From the IMG/VR virus record IMGVR_UViG_3300032294_002710, positions 62,001-126,000 of that record: 64,000 nt of DNA. One strand, given 5' to 3'. The notes beneath the pieces were generated by a model, which saw only the letters and a program-made list of their open reading frames with translations, had not been told where the DNA came from and ran no database searches. This stretch comes from a virus. The position numbers and the translations under genes are program-made. Positions within the stretch are counted from its first letter, which is position 1. Every line of letters starts with the position of its first letter. This document shows positions 4,596 through 63,139 of this stretch, in pieces.

Positions 4596-5132
4596 ATGTT
4601 AGACCTCAAAAATCCAAAATTATCTTACATATTAGTTTCATCTGGTGATATTAGAACACTTACCTCATATTTGTATTCAAGAGAATACTATCTAGTAGAT
4701 ATTAAGGGTTATTATGAAGGTAAGTTTGAAGATTCTCTATTGGCTTTTACCGAGCTTCCACCAAATGAATTAAAGAGAGATTGTTTGCATATAATGGAAT
4801 TCTTTAATCAGGATTGTGTTATAGTTAAATACAAGGATGATAACTCTGCAAAGAAGTTATTTAATGATGGTCAGGAAAAACCATTAGGTATTCTACTTTA
4901 TAATACAGATTCTAATAATAAATCTTATATACATGATGGTTTATCATTCTCATTTGTAGAACAACAACTATATTATTTTCCAAATAAAAAAGAAGATTTT
5001 AAATCTGGAATGATCGTTGAATGTTTTTCCAACAATAAGTGGATAGAGAAAAAAGTTCAAGATCCTGATGCTGAATTTTTAAAGATGTATAATTTATTGA
5101 TTAAGTATAATAAAATAAGAATACCTGTTTAA
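4596..5132 (+). CDS. Hypothetical protein, 178 aa
   Basis: Not recognised. A soluble, mixed alpha/beta-looking protein without cysteine clusters or membrane segments. It follows the palm-domain gene by 37 nt on the same strand. Its stop codon interlocks with that of the convergent cysteine synthase gene inside a TTTAAA. Confidence 0.65.
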   Translation: MLDLKNPKLSYILVSSGDIRTLTSYLYSREYYLVDIKGYYEGKFEDSLLAFTELPPNELKRDCLHIMEFFNQDCVIVKYKDDNSAKKLFNDGQEKPLGILLYNTDSNNKSYIHDGLSFSFVEQQLYYFPNKKEDFKSGMIVECFSNNKWIEKKVQDPDAEFLKMYNLLIKYNKIRIPV

Positions 5133-29427: not shown

Positions 29428-29559
29428 AAAATCCACACTTAAAAAAATTCAAATTTTTGACATCATATATAATAACATCTGAATAATTAAAAATTTTAAA
29501 AAATTTTAAACATCAATTTAAACTTTTTAATTTTTAGTTATAAAAGATAAACAATCAAA

Positions 29560-29972
29560 AATAATCCAGTAGTGATTTTGAGGGTTACTTCGTATGGTTA
29601 ATGAAAAAAACACTCTTGAAAAGTTATCTCTGGTCAATTATATATTGAATGTTAATAGCAAACATAGCGATAGGTTGAGTTACTTCGAAATACAATTCAA
29701 TTTAACACAGATCGACTGAGAGCTAATCCAAGCAATCAGGTTTATAGTGAAACAATAAGATATAGACAAAAAAGGATAGAATAGTTCACTTAATGGACTC
29801 AAGAATTTACTACTTCTTGTAACTAAAGGGTAGGATAAGATGTAAATCCTAAAGAACATCGGTCCCAGACCTCGAGATGAGGTCCGGACGACACCTCAGT
29901 CTAGATTTCCTTGTTTGCGACATTTATATATCAATGACCAGATTTACCAAAAGTAAATCTGGTCTTTTTTTT
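29560..29972 (+). ncRNA. Large structured RNA upstream of the Ro60/TROVE gene
   Basis: The 566-base gap before the TROVE gene has no open frame but holds a run of helices: ATTGAAT 29644-29650 with ATTCAAT 29695-29701; CAAGAA/TTCTTG around 29800-29820; TAGGAT 29831-29836 with ATCCTA 29846-29851; a GC-rich double stem at 29862-29889 (GACCTC-GAGAT-GAGGTC extended by GTCC/GGAC); and a terminator stem of 12 bp with T8. A 9-nt repeat GTTACTTCG occurs at 29584 and 29678. The 5' end is a guess. Bacterial Ro genes often sit beside Y RNAs, but this RNA is longer than known Y RNAs. Confidence 0.6.
29936..29972 (+). terminator. Strong terminator after the structured RNA
   Basis: A perfect 12-bp stem (GACCAGATTTAC / GTAAATCTGGTC), a CAAAA loop and eight Ts. 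It lies before the TROVE start, so the RNA and the protein should be separate transcripts, or the RNA should be read through only partly. Confidence 0.9.
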
Positions 29973-29993
29973 GAACAAAATTAAAATTAATAT

Positions 29994-31442
29994 ATGGCAA
30001 AGTTTAACACAACAGTACCAAAACAAAAAACACTAACTACTAATTTAGCTGGTGGACAGGCTTATCAACAATCAAGTGAGTTGGAATTGGTTTCAATCCT
30101 TTTAACTTCATTTGTTAGTGACCAATTTTATCGTCAATCTGGTGATACTTTAGAAAGAGTTAAAACTCTTTTAGATAAAGTTAATCCTAAATTTGCGGCT
30201 AAGACTGCAATTTTTGCTCGTGATAAGTTTGGAATGAGAAGTATTACACACGCTTTAGCTGGTGAGCTAACCTCAAAACTTGGTGGTCATGAGTGGTCAA
30301 AGGACTTCTATGATAAAGTTGTTGTTCGTGTTGATGATATGACTGAAATTATGTCTTACTATCTTGAGAATAAAACAGATAAGTCTAAACCAAAGTTTCC
30401 AAATGCTTTGAAGAAAGGATTTGCATCAGCTTTTGATAAATTTGATAACTATCAAATTGCTAAGTATAAGAATGAAAATAAAGAAGTAAAACTTGTTGAT
30501 ATTGTGAATTTGGTTCACCCAGTTCCTACTACTTCAAATAAGGATGCTCTTTCAAAACTTGTTGCTGGTAATCTGAAGTCTACAGATACTTGGGAATCTA
30601 AACTTTCTAAGGCTGGTCAAGAAGCATCTAATGATGAAGAATTGACACAATTGAAGTCTGATGCTTGGGGAGAACTTCTTACTACAAGAAAAATTGGATA
30701 CTTTGCACTTCTTAGAAACCTAAGAAATATTATTAATCAAGCTCCACAATTTGTTGGACTTGCTTGTGACCTATTGGTTGATGAAAAAATGATTAAGTCA
30801 AGTCGTGTTCTTCCATTCAGATTTGCAACTGCTTATGAAGAGATTTCTAAATTAGGATCTTCTTCTGATGTTAGAAAGGTTATGACTGCATTACACCAGG
30901 CTTTGGACATTTCATCTGTAAATATTCCTAAGTTCGATGGTGAGACATTAGTAGTACTTGATGTATCAGGATCTATGAGTGGTAAACCATCTGAGATAGC
31001 TTCTCTTTTTGGAGCTATGTTGGCTAAGGCTAATAACTGTGATGTTATGACATTTGCTACAAGTGCTAGTTATAAGTCTTATAACCCAATGGACTCAATA
31101 CTTACTATTAGAAATGGATTCCGCTTCTCTGGTGGTGGTACGAACTTTAAGGATATATTCTTAAAGGCTAATAAGAAATATGACCGTGTTATTATCTTAT
31201 CAGATATGCAAGGTTGGATGGGTTATACAACACCAGCTTCTGAATTTAATCTTTATAAGAAGAAATTCAACTGTAATCCTTATGTTTACTCTTGGGATTT
31301 GGCTGGACTTGGTACAATGCAACTTCCAGAAAGTAATGTATTTGCATTAGCTGGATTTAGTGATAAGGTATTTGATATTATGAAGTGGCTTGAAACAGAT
31401 AGAAATACACTTTATAAAATGATAAATGATATAGAAATCTAA
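29994..31442 (+). CDS. rsr: Ro60-like TROVE and vWA domain protein (Rsr)
   Basis: 482 aa. The N-terminal 300 residues are the helical-repeat TROVE ring (for example KFAAKTAIFARDKFGMRS, TRKIGYFALLRNLRNI). The C-terminal vWA domain has an intact MIDAS, VLDVSGSMSG, near residue 323. Length and order match bacterial Ro60/Rsr, which binds misfolded RNAs and Y RNAs and can guide exonucleases. The gene lies just after a roughly 400-nt structured RNA and ends at a strong terminator. I expect an RNA chaperone or RNA quality-control role during infection. Confidence 0.92.
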   Translation: MAKFNTTVPKQKTLTTNLAGGQAYQQSSELELVSILLTSFVSDQFYRQSGDTLERVKTLLDKVNPKFAAKTAIFARDKFGMRSITHALAGELTSKLGGHEWSKDFYDKVVVRVDDMTEIMSYYLENKTDKSKPKFPNALKKGFASAFDKFDNYQIAKYKNENKEVKLVDIVNLVHPVPTTSNKDALSKLVAGNLKSTDTWESKLSKAGQEASNDEELTQLKSDAWGELLTTRKIGYFALLRNLRNIINQAPQFVGLACDLLVDEKMIKSSRVLPFRFATAYEEISKLGSSSDVRKVMTALHQALDISSVNIPKFDGETLVVLDVSGSMSGKPSEIASLFGAMLAKANNCDVMTFATSASYKSYNPMDSILTIRNGFRFSGGGTNFKDIFLKANKKYDRVIILSDMQGWMGYTTPASEFNLYKKKFNCNPYVYSWDLAGLGTMQLPESNVFALAGFSDKVFDIMKWLETDRNTLYKMINDIEI

Positions 31443-60861: not shown

Positions 60862-60933
60862 TGCGGGGTAGAGCAGAGGTAGCTCGTCAGGCTCATAACC
60901 TGAAGGCCGGTGGTTCGATTCCACCCCCCGCTA
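60862..60933 (+). tRNA. tRNA-Met(CAT), initiator-like
   Basis: Cloverleaf with anticodon CAT in stem TCAGG/CCTGA and T-arm GGTGG-TTCGATT-CCACC. The first acceptor pair T1:T72 is not a Watson-Crick pair (GCGGGG/CCCCGC below it), and D-stem pair 11:24 is A:T, both initiator marks. Only two of the three G:C pairs at 29-31:39-41 are present. No CCA is encoded. Most likely an fMet-type tRNA. Confidence 0.8.
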
Positions 60934-61018
60934 CATGAAAAAGAAAATTTGTATTTTTATACAGAAAATAACTCTAAACAAGATTTGCTTAGGTTATTGT
61001 AAAAATTAATACTCACAC

Positions 61019-61093
61019 TGCGGGTGGGTGAAACGGAAAATCATTCCAGGCTCATAACCTGTGAGATACTTGGTTCGACTCCAGGACCCGCTA
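61019..61093 (+). tRNA. tRNA with CAT anticodon (elongator Met or Ile2)
   Basis: Anticodon CAT in a loop CTCATAA, acceptor GCGGGT/ACCCGC with unpaired T1:T72, D-stem GTGA/TCAT (T11:A24, elongator type) and T-arm CTTGG-TTCGACT-CCAGG. The phage encodes TilS at 63499, so this may be a tRNA-Ile2 that is converted to lysidine to read AUA. Elongator Met is the alternative. No CCA encoded. Confidence 0.75.
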
Positions 61094-61135
61094 CAAAAAA
61101 ATTAAAAAAATATTTGGAGATTTAAAAAATCTTCG

Positions 61136-61143
61136 TATATTTG
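61136..61143 (+). promoter_or_regulatory. TAnnTTTG promoter with -33 TTTG
   Basis: TATATTTG preceded by TTTG at 61113-61116 with a spacing of 19 nt, the best full match to the Bacteroidetes promoter here. It drives the short ORF at 61178. Confidence 0.75.
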
Positions 61144-61177
61144 TAAAACAAAACAGAACAATTTAAAAATAGAAATC

Positions 61178-61258
61178 ATGGCAACTTTTGAAACATATTA
61201 TTATGAAGCGTATGAGGAACACTCAGCGACTGGAGATACTATGTCTGTGAAAAGTTGA
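61178..61258 (+). CDS. Micro-ORF, 26 aa, in the tRNA array
   Basis: MATFETYYYEAYEEH... to a TGA at 61258, an acidic Tyr-rich peptide. A promoter, 34-nt leader and a terminator (61290) frame it as its own transcription unit. The function is unknown; the RNA itself could be the product. Confidence 0.45.
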   Translation: MATFETYYYEAYEEHSATGDTMSVKS

Positions 61259-61289
61259 TATGTAAGATATTAACTAAAAACACAAGTTA

Positions 61290-61323
61290 ACCCAGTCAAA
61301 ATCAAAATTGACTGGGTTTTTTG
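61290..61323 (+). terminator. Intrinsic terminator with CCCAGTCA stem
   Basis: ACCCAGTCA-containing stem with TGACTGGGTTTTTT after the 61178 micro-ORF. Same stem as at 59921. Confidence 0.85.
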
Positions 61324-61336
61324 TTTTAAAATATAT

Positions 61337-61430
61337 TGGGGTATAACGGTAGGGCATAGTAAGCGCCCGACAGAGTATATAAAACGCCGTATGGACTACC
61401 TGTGAGGAGGTTCGATTCCTTCTACTCCAA
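61337..61430 (+). ncRNA. Atypical tRNA-like RNA (94 nt)
   Basis: Acceptor TGGGGTA/TACTCCA plus discriminator A and a normal T-arm GGAGG-TTCGATT-CCTTC. Between them there is no D-arm; instead GGTAG (61348-61352 region) pairs with CTACC, enclosing a GGGC...GCCC hairpin and a 26-nt linker. The acceptor resembles that of tRNA-Gln, but no Gln anticodon is found. A putative GTA in the hairpin loop lacks U33. Class unknown. Confidence 0.5.
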
Positions 61431-61438
61431 CTAAATAT

Positions 61439-61510
61439 GGTCCCATCATCTAATGGTTAGGATACAAGACTTTCAATCTTGAAATGCGGGTTCGATCCCC
61501 GTTGGGACTA
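61439..61510 (+). tRNA. tRNA-Glu(TTC)
   Basis: Acceptor GGTCCCA/TGGGACT with a G1:T72 pair, D-stem ATC/GAT, anticodon stem CAAGA/TCTTG with loop CTTTCAA (TTC), T-loop TTCGATC. Discriminator A, no CCA. Confidence 0.88.
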
Positions 61511-61519
61511 CAAAAATAT

Positions 61520-61603
61520 GGGAGAGTAACCGGTAACTGGTAGCCGCGCGGACTGTAAATCCGCTCTCATTCGAGACTGGGGGTTCGAGTCCCTCCTCTC
61601 CCA
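61520..61603 (+). tRNA. tRNA-Tyr(GTA), class II
   Basis: Acceptor GGGAGAG/CTCTCCC, anticodon stem GCGGA/TCCGC with loop CTGTAAA (GTA), a long variable arm and T-arm GGGGG-TTCGAGT-CCCTC. 84 nt, discriminator A, no CCA. Confidence 0.9.
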
Positions 61604-61608
61604 CAAAT

Positions 61609-61682
61609 GCTCTTGTCGTCTAACGGTAGGACTCCTGTTTTTCAAACAGATGTAGATGCGGGTTCGATTCCCGTCAAGAGTA
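61609..61682 (+). tRNA. tRNA-Glu(TTC), second copy type
   Basis: Acceptor GCTCTTG/CAAGAGT, D-stem GTC/GAC, anticodon loop TTTTCAA (TTC) on a stem with one C:A mismatch, T-loop TTCGATT. Discriminator A, no CCA. A different body from the 61439 tRNA. Confidence 0.78.
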
Positions 61683-61690
61683 CTAAATAT

Positions 61691-61784
61691 GGGATGTGTT
61701 GTCACAAGGGGTCTGTAAAACCCCTCTCCGTTAACAAAATTGTGACTGGTTTGGAGTTTAGAGGTTCGATTCCTTCATATCCCA
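61691..61784 (+). ncRNA. Atypical tRNA-like RNA with Tyr-type anticodon hairpin
   Basis: Acceptor GGGATGT/ATATCCC and T-arm (TTCGATT) are tRNA-like. The anticodon hairpin is GGGGT-CTGTAAA-ACCCC, a perfect Tyr(GTA) type arm. But the D-arm is missing; GTCACAA at about 61701 pairs with TTGTGAC at about 61740, enclosing the anticodon hairpin. It could be a variant tRNA-Tyr or a decoy. Confidence 0.55.
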
Positions 61785-61792
61785 CTAAATAT

Positions 61793-61867
61793 GGTCCGTT
61801 CGTCTAGCCAGGTCTAGGACATCTCCCTTTCACGGAGAAGACACGGGTTCGAATCCCGTACGGACTA
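61793..61867 (+). tRNA. tRNA-Glu(TTC), third
   Basis: Acceptor GGTCCGT/ACGGACT, D-stem GTC/GAC, anticodon stem TCTCC/GGAGA with loop CTTTCAC (TTC), T-loop TTCGAAT. Discriminator A. Confidence 0.87.
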
Positions 61868-61873
61868 CAATAT

Positions 61874-61947
61874 GGCCCTGTCGTCTACGATGGCTAGGAC
61901 ATCACCCTCTCAAGGTGAAGAAGGCGGATCGACACCGCTCAGGGCTA
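61874..61947 (+). tRNA. tRNA-Glu(CTC)
   Basis: Acceptor GGCCCTG/CAGGGCT, D-stem GTC/GAC, anticodon stem TCACC/GGTGA with loop CTCTCAA (CTC). The T-loop reads ATCGACA in place of TTCGANT, so position 54 is A, which may weaken folding or modification. Confidence 0.78.
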
Positions 61948-61949
61948 CA

Positions 61950-62091
61950 AAAATATCAGGAGTACCTGTCGTAGAAAGTTAATTACTTTCCCTGATATTT
62001 ATACAACTCAATGATGTAAGTGATTTTGGCAGTACCGACAGGAGGGTGAATTTAATTAGATTCTTTGGGGTTCGATTCCCACCATTGAGTT
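61950..62091 (+). ncRNA. tRNA-like RNA with pseudoknot (about 140 nt)
   Basis: A 5' domain: AAATATCAGG (61951-61960) pairs perfectly with CCTGATATTT (61991-62000), enclosing the GAAAGT/ACTTTC hairpin. Inside it, CCTGTCG (61965-61971) is complementary to CGACAGG (62036-62042) in the 3' domain, forming a pseudoknot. The 3' domain has an acceptor-like AACTCAATG/CATTGAGTT and a T-loop GTTCGATT on a TGGG/CCCA stem. No anticodon is recognised. Confidence 0.5.
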
Positions 62092-62098
62092 ATTTTAT

Positions 62099-62184
62099 TG
62101 GAAGGTGGCCGAGTGGTTAATGGCGGCAGACTGTAAATCTGCTCTCTTCGGAGTACGGGGGTTCGAATCCCTCCCTTCCAACCA
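62099..62184 (+). tRNA. tRNA-Tyr(GTA), class II, CCA encoded
   Basis: Acceptor TGGAAGG/CCTTCCA, anticodon loop CTGTAAA (GTA), long variable arm, T-arm GGGGG-TTCGAAT-CCCTC. It is followed directly by discriminator A and CCA, unlike the other tRNAs here. A second tRNA-Tyr. Confidence 0.88.
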
Positions 62185-62223
62185 AGAAATTATAAAAAAT
62201 TTCCTAAAATAAGAAATTTTTTA

Positions 62224-62231
62224 TATATTTG
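62224..62231 (+). promoter_or_regulatory. TAnnTTTG promoter inside the tRNA array
   Basis: TATATTTG; about 60 nt before the class II tRNA-like RNA at 62292. A likely second start for the array. Confidence 0.6.
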
Positions 62232-62291
62232 TAAAGTAAATCAAATGTGGCTAAGTCCTATATGGCAAAAAGTTCATATTTTGATTTTTAT

Positions 62292-62378
62292 GGGAAAGTA
62301 CCGAAGTGGTCAAACGGGCCTCAGTCGTAACTGGGGTGGCCTTAGGGTCTTCAGCGGTTCGAATCCGACTCTTTCCCA
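62292..62378 (+). tRNA. Class II tRNA with unclear anticodon
   Basis: Acceptor GGGAAAG/CTTTCCC, D-stem CCG/CGG, variable arm GGCC-TTAG-GGTC. The anticodon loop is 8 nt (GTCGTAAC) between CCTCA and TGGGG, giving CGT, or GTA with C at position 33. The T-stem is imperfect (bulged A). Could be a degenerate Tyr-like tRNA or a frameshift-type tRNA. Confidence 0.5.
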
Positions 62379-62408
62379 CTAAAATATTTATTAGGAGAGA
62401 AAAACTTT

Positions 62409-62418
62409 TTAATATATA
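62409..62418 (+). promoter_or_regulatory. TTAATATATA late-like promoter element
   Basis: About 30 nt upstream of the micro-ORF at 62446. Confidence 0.4.
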
Positions 62419-62445
62419 TTTATATAACTTAAAATAAAGATAAAA

Positions 62446-62523
62446 ATGAAAGCAGTTAATAACATATCAATCATAGGGAACGGCGCGATAGCGGGCGGTG
62501 GGCCCATTATGCTGATTGGATAA
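62446..62523 (+). CDS. Micro-ORF, 25 aa, Gly-rich hydrophobic
   Basis: Starts MKAVNNISIIGNG and continues with GGGP; stop TAA at 62523. The codons are far more GC-rich (GGCGCGATAGCGGG) than the rest. The late-like element lies before it, and a terminator (62553) lies after. Perhaps a membrane peptide or a structured RNA. Confidence 0.45.
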   Translation: MKAVNNISIIGNGAIAGGGPIMLIG

Positions 62524-62552
62524 GTTTTAACTCTTTCATTAAAGATACGAAC

Positions 62553-62581
62553 CCAGTCAGTAAATTGACTGGGTTTTTTTA
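62553..62581 (+). terminator. Intrinsic terminator with CCCAGTCA stem
   Basis: CCCAGTCAGTAAATTGACTGGG then seven Ts, after the 62446 micro-ORF. Third use of the same stem. Confidence 0.85.
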
Positions 62582-62585
62582 TTAT

Positions 62586-62666
62586 CGGCAGGTACCGTTG
62601 GATGCTTATATCATCTATACACGTAGCGGGAAGTTGAAAACGTGGGTTCGAATCCCACCCTGCCGA
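62586..62666 (+). ncRNA. Atypical tRNA-like RNA with TAT loop (81 nt)
   Basis: Acceptor CGGCAGG/CCTGCCG, perfect T-arm GTGGG-TTCGAAT-CCCAC. No D-arm: CCGTT pairs with AGCGG, enclosing the hairpin GGATG-CTTATAT-CATCT whose loop would give anticodon TAT (Ile, AUA codon). Same layout as the RNAs at 61337 and 61691. Confidence 0.55.
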
Positions 62667-62667
62667 C

Positions 62668-62742
62668 AAACTCAAACTTGTGTTAACTCCTTGAGAGTGA
62701 AGTTGTGTACACAACAGGTTTATTCCCATAAGTCCCTGAGTT
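62668..62742 (+). other. tRNA-sized structured stretch without T-loop
   Basis: AACTCA pairs with TGAGTT at the ends; inside, AAACTTGTGT and ACACAACAGGTTT roughly pair, and the 14-nt palindrome GTTGTGTACACAAC lies at 62702-62715. No T-loop or anticodon is recognisable. It could be a decayed tRNA or a separate RNA. Confidence 0.3.
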
Positions 62743-62745
62743 ATT

Positions 62746-62819
62746 GCAGAAGTGGTGTTTAATGGTTAGCATGTGAGACTTCCACTCTCAAGGTGCCGGT
62801 TCGAATCCGGTCTTCTGCT
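62746..62819 (+). tRNA. tRNA-Gly(TCC)
   Basis: Acceptor GCAGAAG/CTTCTGC, anticodon stem TGAGA/TCTCA with loop CTTCCAC (TCC), T-arm GCCGG-TTCGAAT-CCGGT. Discriminator T. Confidence 0.88.
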
Positions 62820-62826
62820 CAGATAT

Positions 62827-62900
62827 GTCGATGACGCATAAATGGTGGTGCACCTGATTGCCAATCAGGAATAGAGCCGGTTCGATCCCGGTTATCGACT
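62827..62900 (+). tRNA. tRNA-Gly(GCC)
   Basis: Acceptor GTCGATG/TATCGAC, D-stem GCA/TGC, anticodon stem CCTGA/TCAGG with loop TTGCCAA (GCC), T-arm GCCGG-TTCGATC-CCGGT. Discriminator T. Confidence 0.88.
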
Positions 62901-62915
62901 CAGACTTTTCAATAT

Positions 62916-62953
62916 GCCGGAGGACTCCCTGTTAGTCCCAGGGTCCGGCTCCA
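62916..62953 (+). other. Compact GC-rich hairpin ending in CCA
   Basis: GCCGGA/TCCGGC closes a 38-nt element; inside, CCCTG/CAGGG with loop TTAGTCC (or alternatively GGACT/AGTCC) forms a second stem. It ends T-CCA, directly before tRNA-Ala. This looks like an acceptor minihelix plus one hairpin. Confidence 0.35.
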
Positions 62954-63027
62954 GGGGCAGCATGTACCAAGGCTGGCGAAGATTTCTGGCAGAAATCTTG
63001 TGATGGATTCAATTTCCATCTGCTCCA
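62954..63027 (+). tRNA. tRNA-Ala(GGC)
   Basis: Acceptor GGGGCAG/CTGCTCC with the Ala identity pair G3:T70. Anticodon stem GATTT/AAATC, loop CTGGCAG (GGC). Short D-arm CCA/TGG, T-arm ATGGA-TTCAATT-TCCAT. Discriminator A. Confidence 0.82.
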
Positions 63028-63036
63028 CAAAAATTA

Positions 63037-63111
63037 GGGGATGCATGTACTGAGGCTAAGCGAAAAGCACTTGCAATGCTTTTGATGTGATTTCGACTAT
63101 CACCATCTCCA
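63037..63111 (+). tRNA. tRNA-Ala(TGC)
   Basis: Acceptor GGGGATG/CATCTCC with G3:T70, anticodon stem AAGCA/TGCTT with loop CTTGCAA (TGC), T-arm GTGAT-TTCGACT-ATCAC. Discriminator A. Confidence 0.88.
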
Positions 63112-63139
63112 CGAGTTCGATAGAGAAACTCTCCACTTT

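Follow-up and report, generated by a model that had tools for sequence, protein, structure and literature searches.

The stretch of viral DNA analysed here (the window, 64,000 nucleotides, being bases 62001-126000 of the 134,852-base IMG/VR virus record IMGVR_UViG_3300032294_002710) contains a phage rsr gene for a Ro60/TROVE protein, and directly 5' of it a structured RNA. From its sequence, this RNA is well supported as a composite Y RNA with two heads, modules A and B, and a new domain. The Y RNA family is known; it is the build, with two heads and an exchanged effector domain, that is unusual. The explanation that best accounts for the locus, and which we consider probable, is that a two-headed Y RNA binds Rsr and, by sensing it, also attenuates transcription of rsr. 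The parts of this reading differ in strength. Rsr very likely binds both modules, judging from their sequences, while folding predictions give about an even chance that the same RNA is the rsr leader and its transcription attenuator.

A conserved structured RNA 5' of rsr

A preliminary description of this stretch had noticed a full-length Rsr close behind a terminator that ends a structured, ORF-less (open reading frame-less) region. The layout holds. The predicted fold of 29545-29980 is 4.5 standard deviations better than that of dinucleotide shuffles, none of 100 being as good, every ORF within 29428-29993 is shorter than 60 aa, and the rsr start codon follows the strong terminator after 21 nt. 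So narrow a gap is unlikely to hold an independent promoter for rsr. The description had also proposed searches for covariation over homologous phage loci and for known Rfam families, both of which bear it out. When 19 homologues are aligned, pairing is kept in 93.6% of cells and 24 of 67 pairs have double changes; the covariation score is 0.270, against 0.131 +/- 0.008 when shuffled, and RNAalifold independently reports 25 compensated pairs. Since conservation and covariation far exceed the controls, the RNA is not a chance feature. No Rfam family reaches its gathering score on it, and a limit relaxed to E<=10 brings up nothing of note; on this count a known family, an intron or a ribozyme was rejected as its identity. 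By eye GAGGUCCGGAC resembles an RNase P motif, but this was not borne out.

Homologues were gathered with Rsr searches and RNA motif searches. About 30 distinct phage contigs, the largest of them the 634,780-base LR745206.1, have the same RNA immediately 5' of rsr, and the earlier suggestion of a phage Ro protein with its partner RNA encoded alongside is thereby conserved well beyond the window. Among relatives whose upstream DNA was examined, those with Rsr proteins 64-87% identical bear the RNA. At 29-60% identity the long RNA is absent, and in its stead the examined relatives show single motifs or Y RNAs of the ordinary type. A search of 84,980 cellular genomes for the module B pattern gave 0 exact matches; although this is a narrow test, module B is apparently phage-borne.

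Two heads of the Ro-binding type

Module A is a hairpin with a lower stem of the Ro-binding type, CCAG[U]AG/CUCUGG, a UGA internal loop and a 10-bp upper helix. Across 25 sequences 98.2% of its pair cells are standard, double changes occur in 10 of 16 pairs, and the covariation score of 0.440 compares with 0.141 when shuffled (0 of 500 shuffles) and at most 0.106 when slid. Module B keeps its 18 model pairs in 99.1% of cells, with double changes at 6 of them. The two modules have a common layout, in which a lower helix, a bulged U and an AG/CU step are followed by a YGA loop opposite an A/U-rich 3' loop, a 9-10 bp upper helix and UACUUCG. The Ro60 site in vertebrates has been described as a helix with one bulged pyrimidine and a bulge on the opposite strand (PMC4726728), and the stems of both modules resemble it.

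Besides these Y RNA features and its position next to an Rsr gene, the RNA has homology to Y RNAs. The covariance model of module A matches Y RNAs in other phages and in bacteria (E 1e-9 to 1e-4). Those in unrelated phages lie near TROVE genes or in tRNA arrays (E 1e-6 to 1e-4), and those in the Bacteroidota (Hymenobacter, Saprospiraceae) and in a Chloroflexi metagenome-assembled genome just 5' of the bacterial rsr. Model R2, built from module B with its insert removed, also matches Y RNAs in such phage and bacterial settings (best E 1.6e-7), and some of the Y RNAs matched by models R1 and R2 have YrlA-type inserts. The motif occurs three times in locus L016, and two of these copies are fused to domains that match Rfam YrlA (E 8e-8 and 3e-7). 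As the models of both modules match Y RNAs, and as the motif in L016 precedes YrlA-like domains, we read the RNA as a two-headed Y RNA. The idea of Ro with a new RNA thus stands in part: the domain within module B is new, but the partner is a Y RNA of two Ro-binding modules and not wholly new.

An exchanged domain in module B

The insert of module B is in the place where other Y RNAs hold their tRNA mimic. Is it a tRNA mimic in disguise? Searches of the window RNA and of locus L010 for tRNA and YrlA gave no match, while the same search found the YrlA of L016 as a positive control, and a hidden tRNA mimic was rejected. Instead the domain has several covarying stems and a pseudoknot. Two of the pseudoknot's loop pairs covary (G-C 14, U-A 3, A-U 1; and G-C 11, U-A 5, A-U 1); the paired letters are GAUGU/ACAUC in the window, GAUGG/CUAUC in most relatives and, by eye, GGUCA/UGACC in L124. 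We infer that the domain is the effector, substituting for the tRNA mimic.

Y RNAs are thought to direct Ro60 activity via an exchangeable effector domain. A natural swap of that domain, kept in about 30 phage contigs and combined with two heads for Ro, puts this idea directly to the test, and may reveal a phage-specific partner that replaces PNPase.

Could the domain be a mobile or catalytic RNA, an intron or ribozyme, that landed in a Y RNA by chance? It is large, self-contained and pseudoknotted, but it has no Rfam intron or ribozyme match and holds the same position in some 30 contigs with both Y stems alongside; of the alternatives weighed here this is the least probable.

Table 1. Features of the rsr locus, in window coordinates.
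Feature	Position	Strand	Basis or remark
Promoter-like block AAACTTTTTAATTTTTAGTTATAAAA	29520-29545	+	putative; conserved 20-45 nt 5' of module A in most relatives
Entire structured RNA, from module A through the terminator T-run	29559-29972 (5' end approximate)	+	19-homologue alignment; fold z-score -4.5
Module A, Y RNA hairpin, GUUACUUCG	29566-29633	+	covariation; covariance-model matches
Module A 3' arm CUCUGGUC	29628-29635	+	alternative partners: module A 5' arm or terminator 5' arm
Module B 5' half, GCAAACA[U]AGCGAUAGGUUGAGUUACUUCG	29658-29687	+	shares bulge, AG/CU, YGA loop and UACUUCG with module A
Domain inside module B, ~207 nt	29688-29894	+	not tRNA-like; several covarying stems
Pseudoknot	29831-29860	+	hairpin 29831-29836/29846-29851; loop GAUGU 29839-29843 with ACAUC 29856-29860
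Hairpin GACCUC/GAGGUC	29868-29884	+	homologous CAAAG..CUUUG or UUGGAG..CUUCAA in relatives
Module B 3' half, CUCAGUCUAGAUUUCCUUGUUUGC	29895-29918	+	closes module B
rsr leader terminator	29936-29972	+	stem 29936-29964, T-run 29965-29972; 98.8% paired
Terminator 5' arm GACCAGAUUUAC	29936-29947	+	alternative partner of module A 3' arm
rsr	29994-31442	+	482-aa Ro60/TROVE + vWA ORF; Pfam, AlphaFold2, Foldseek

Predicted competition between terminator and module A

Two arms of the RNA are complementary: UCUGGUC, on the 3' side of module A, and GACCAGA, on the 5' side of the terminator. The resulting competition is absent from the preliminary description, and in the folding predictions it points to control of rsr. 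The complementarity is kept with changed letters elsewhere: the arms are CUCUGAUUACA/UGUAAUCAGAG in L036, CCUUGUAAA/UUUACAAGG in L128, where they are unrelated to those of the window family, and another 12-bp helix in L131. Across 12 lineages the mean pairing energy is -14.1 kcal/mol for matched arms, -8.2 for arms crossed between lineages and -4.8 for shuffled arms, with a permutation p of about 1e-5 for matched against crossed. Terminator swaps between close lineages, which have GACCAGA in common, are uninformative on the switch; the distant lineages are the informative ones.

The predicted folds behave as those of an attenuator, with a conserved antiterminator and terminator that are mutually exclusive. 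Without the terminator 3' arm, module A's 3' arm pairs with the terminator 5' arm with a probability of 1.00 in 8 of 8 sequences. In the full transcript it returns to its own 5' arm (0.86-1.00, again 8 of 8) and the terminator is formed as well. The same can be seen in the energies, in all ten of ten cases: before the terminator 3' arm is made the antiterminator pairing is favoured by 3.6 to 10.2 kcal/mol, and after the terminator is complete module A plus terminator is favoured by 2.4 to 9.9 kcal/mol. This pattern is also predicted in L124, L126, L120 and L128, in part in L131 and weakly in Hymenobacter.

How might such a switch work? At low levels of free Rsr, the 3' arm of module A would pair with the emerging terminator 5' arm, RNA polymerase would read through, and rsr mRNA would be made. 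With module A kept closed by bound Rsr, terminator formation would follow, and the Y RNA alone would be released. The terminated transcript would then be an Rsr-bound ribonucleoprotein (RNP) with the module B domain as its effector, and the negative feedback would balance Rsr against Y RNA. Negative feedback is the simplest reading because Rsr is expected on the stem that competes with the antiterminator. We put slightly below an even chance on the specific proposal that Rsr bound to a nascent Y RNA head lets the terminator close before its own gene. The same tentative estimate covers, jointly with the attenuator, the ideas that the switch, which is predicted for L128 and L131 in unrelated letters and weakly for Hymenobacter, predates the two-headed RNA, and that the big phages have replaced a tRNA-mimic effector with a new pseudoknotted one. 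If the attenuator is real, it would keep the amounts of Ro60 and Y RNA in step by a mechanism that may extend to bacteria, possibly a new kind of Ro60 autoregulation, and would account for the frequent position of Y RNAs just 5' of rsr.

Several points weigh against this account. The transcript, its ends and the binding of Rsr rest on sequence-based inference. The module A model misses module B, because of the long insert, and module B draws its support from the common motif, its own covariation and model R2. Copying of a hairpin could explain the likeness between terminator and module A, and the permutation tests on the arms take no account of shared ancestry. Copying is less likely in L128 and L131, because there the complementary stretch is mostly upstream of the terminator stem. 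In the full transcript of L131 module A wins only partly (0.24), and the prefix probability in Hymenobacter is just 0.55.

Alternative explanations

The transcript may be a precursor that is cut in the A/U-rich spacer to give a 70-nt Y RNA (module A) and one of 260-300 nt (module B), with one Rsr on each product. This is compatible with the explanation preferred above and we regard it as a realistic possibility, though the less favoured one. Module A stands alone in L043, and separate Y RNAs lie in tandem in L128, L131 and Hymenobacter; against this, the spacer measures only about 25 nt and has no known processing site.

Does the Y RNA act only in trans? Both modules would then bind Rsr, the module B domain would recruit a partner, the terminator would be a plain one, and its likeness to module A would come from duplication or chance. 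Such a reading would fit L043, where module A stands alone before a terminator and no rsr was detected, and the Y RNAs without rsr in the tRNA arrays of the same phages. Yet in L036, L124, L128 and L131 the arms have stayed complementary although their sequences have changed greatly, and of 150 trials with shuffled terminator arms only 4 gave pairing. We consider action in trans alone unlikely.

The opposite case, a purely cis-regulatory, riboswitch-like rsr leader from which no stable RNA is released, would suit the position directly 5' of rsr and the terminator/antiterminator folding. It is improbable, as both modules belong to a Y RNA family found elsewhere away from rsr, and Y RNAs assemble into RNPs in bacteria (PMC4726728, PMC8394870).

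The Rsr protein

The rsr product is a full-length Rsr, as originally described, with a Pfam TROVE match (E=7e-16) and an intact MIDAS (metal ion-dependent adhesion site; DxSxS...T...D) of which D323, S325, S327, T383 and D404 are unchanged across 16 relatives. Pfam and the AlphaFold2 model (predicted local distance difference test score 84) with Foldseek show the TROVE HEAT-repeat ring and vWA domain of Ro60/Rsr proteins; the Foldseek matches are the Ro60 of Thermus phage phiLo, human and Xenopus Ro60, and Deinococcus Rsr. The nearest solved structures are those of phiLo Ro60 (PDB 9l5y, 9kop), with E 6e-24 by sequence and 8e-15/2.5e-14 by fold, and 22-24% identity in the fold alignment; 9l5y is a dimer as deposited. 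A motif scan of phiLo for an RNA partner, to which its examination was confined, gave no strict motif.

In L014 (5001-7133), and likewise L015 and L018, and in L017 (3699-5951), an HNH endonuclease ORF splits rsr into two ORFs at an identical site immediately before KLVDVVNLVHPVP; the upstream RNA is retained. An intron was rejected here, as there is no Rfam intron match and the HNH ORF interrupts the gene. The split Rsr may work as two chains.

Comparison with known systems

Bacterial YrlA is 90-150 nt long and its tRNA-like domain contacts PNPase (PMC8394870); for this family (Rfam RF02553) PMC7790460 and PMC12282133 cite Chen et al. (2014, RNA 20:1715). The window RNA is like YrlA in adjoining rsr, in its bulged Ro-binding basal stem and in having an insert at the distal end of that stem, and the same phages also bear ordinary Y RNAs in tRNA arrays, one of them with a permuted tRNA-like insert. 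It differs in its 414 nt, several times the length of known Y RNAs as first remarked, in its two Ro-binding modules per transcript, and in a pseudoknotted insert in place of a tRNA mimic. It lacks the tRNA-like domain, gathering score and length of RF02553.

The Rsr fold and neighbouring Y RNA recall the Deinococcus RYPER, made of Rsr, Y RNA and PNPase (PMC4726728, PMC8394870), whereas the window RNA is without the PNPase-binding tRNA-like domain, so that a different partner, or host PNPase via another contact, is expected. The Salmonella rsr-yrlBA-rtcBA RNA repair operon (PMC7790460) likewise has rsr with Y RNAs. Neither PNPase nor RNase PH genes were found in 8 phage records, some of them fragmentary, nor, unlike in the Salmonella operon, was RtcB, and a phage-encoded partner of either kind was rejected.

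Protein-sensing transcription attenuators include ribosomal-protein leaders, TRAP and PyrR. The proposed switch shares their mutually exclusive antiterminator and terminator and, like them, sets a protein-binding stem against the antiterminator; it would differ in having a Y RNA head as its sensor and Ro60 as the gene under control, a combination of which we know no report. Our literature search, which did not cover Chen et al. 2014 or the 2020 Annual Review on bacterial Ro60, found neither this RNA nor rsr attenuation previously reported. TROVE proteins are known in jumbo phages (PMC7824862). Near a predicted Rsr of a Listeria phage there are three highly abundant transcripts that, the authors suggest, may be Y RNAs (PMC12282133), which makes expression of phage Y RNAs plausible.

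Other Y RNAs and neighbouring features

The virus of the window has a further Y RNA outside it, at record position 132503-132595 (L082 1501-1593; E 7e-7), amid an array of 17 predicted tRNAs. A second array is at 60862-63112 of the window; its predicted tRNA genes number 11 (for Met, Glu, Tyr, Gly and Ala, with Glu-TTC three times), and it has no Y RNA motif inside. LR745206.1 has extra Y RNAs at three places; the insert of the one at 369028-369175 (L071 1501-1648) is tRNA-like and circularly permuted. In the more distant phage of L128 the order is that of the window family, with a hairpin Y RNA, a Y RNA with a permuted tRNA-like insert, a terminator and rsr. Annotated tRNAs of Xanthomonas phage 10KY502B (tRNA-Thr, L062 2313-2380) and phage csAssE-Sib (tRNA-Tyr and tRNA-Lys, L057 2166-2384) carry or adjoin the motif and may be misannotated parts of Y RNAs. 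The viral-scan pattern matches in L037, L038, L044, L049 and L054 were set aside as apparent chance matches.

Three tandem Y RNAs and a terminator precede rsr in Hymenobacter glacieicola (L100 2100-2480), and a version of the same antiterminator switch is possible there. L131 has a structured stretch, GUGCGAGGAAAGUGAGACUG...CUUCGCAC, between two Y hairpins (2195-2325), and L013 an additional structured-looking stretch between terminator and rsr (4885-5000).

The AAACTTTTTAATTTTTAGTTATAAAA block has 4 matches in the window at <=3 mismatches, against 0.6 expected, which is suggestive only of a promoter element. A second conserved block, AATCCAC...ATATATAA (29428-29519), lies about 90-140 nt 5' of module A in most relatives and is perhaps a second promoter.
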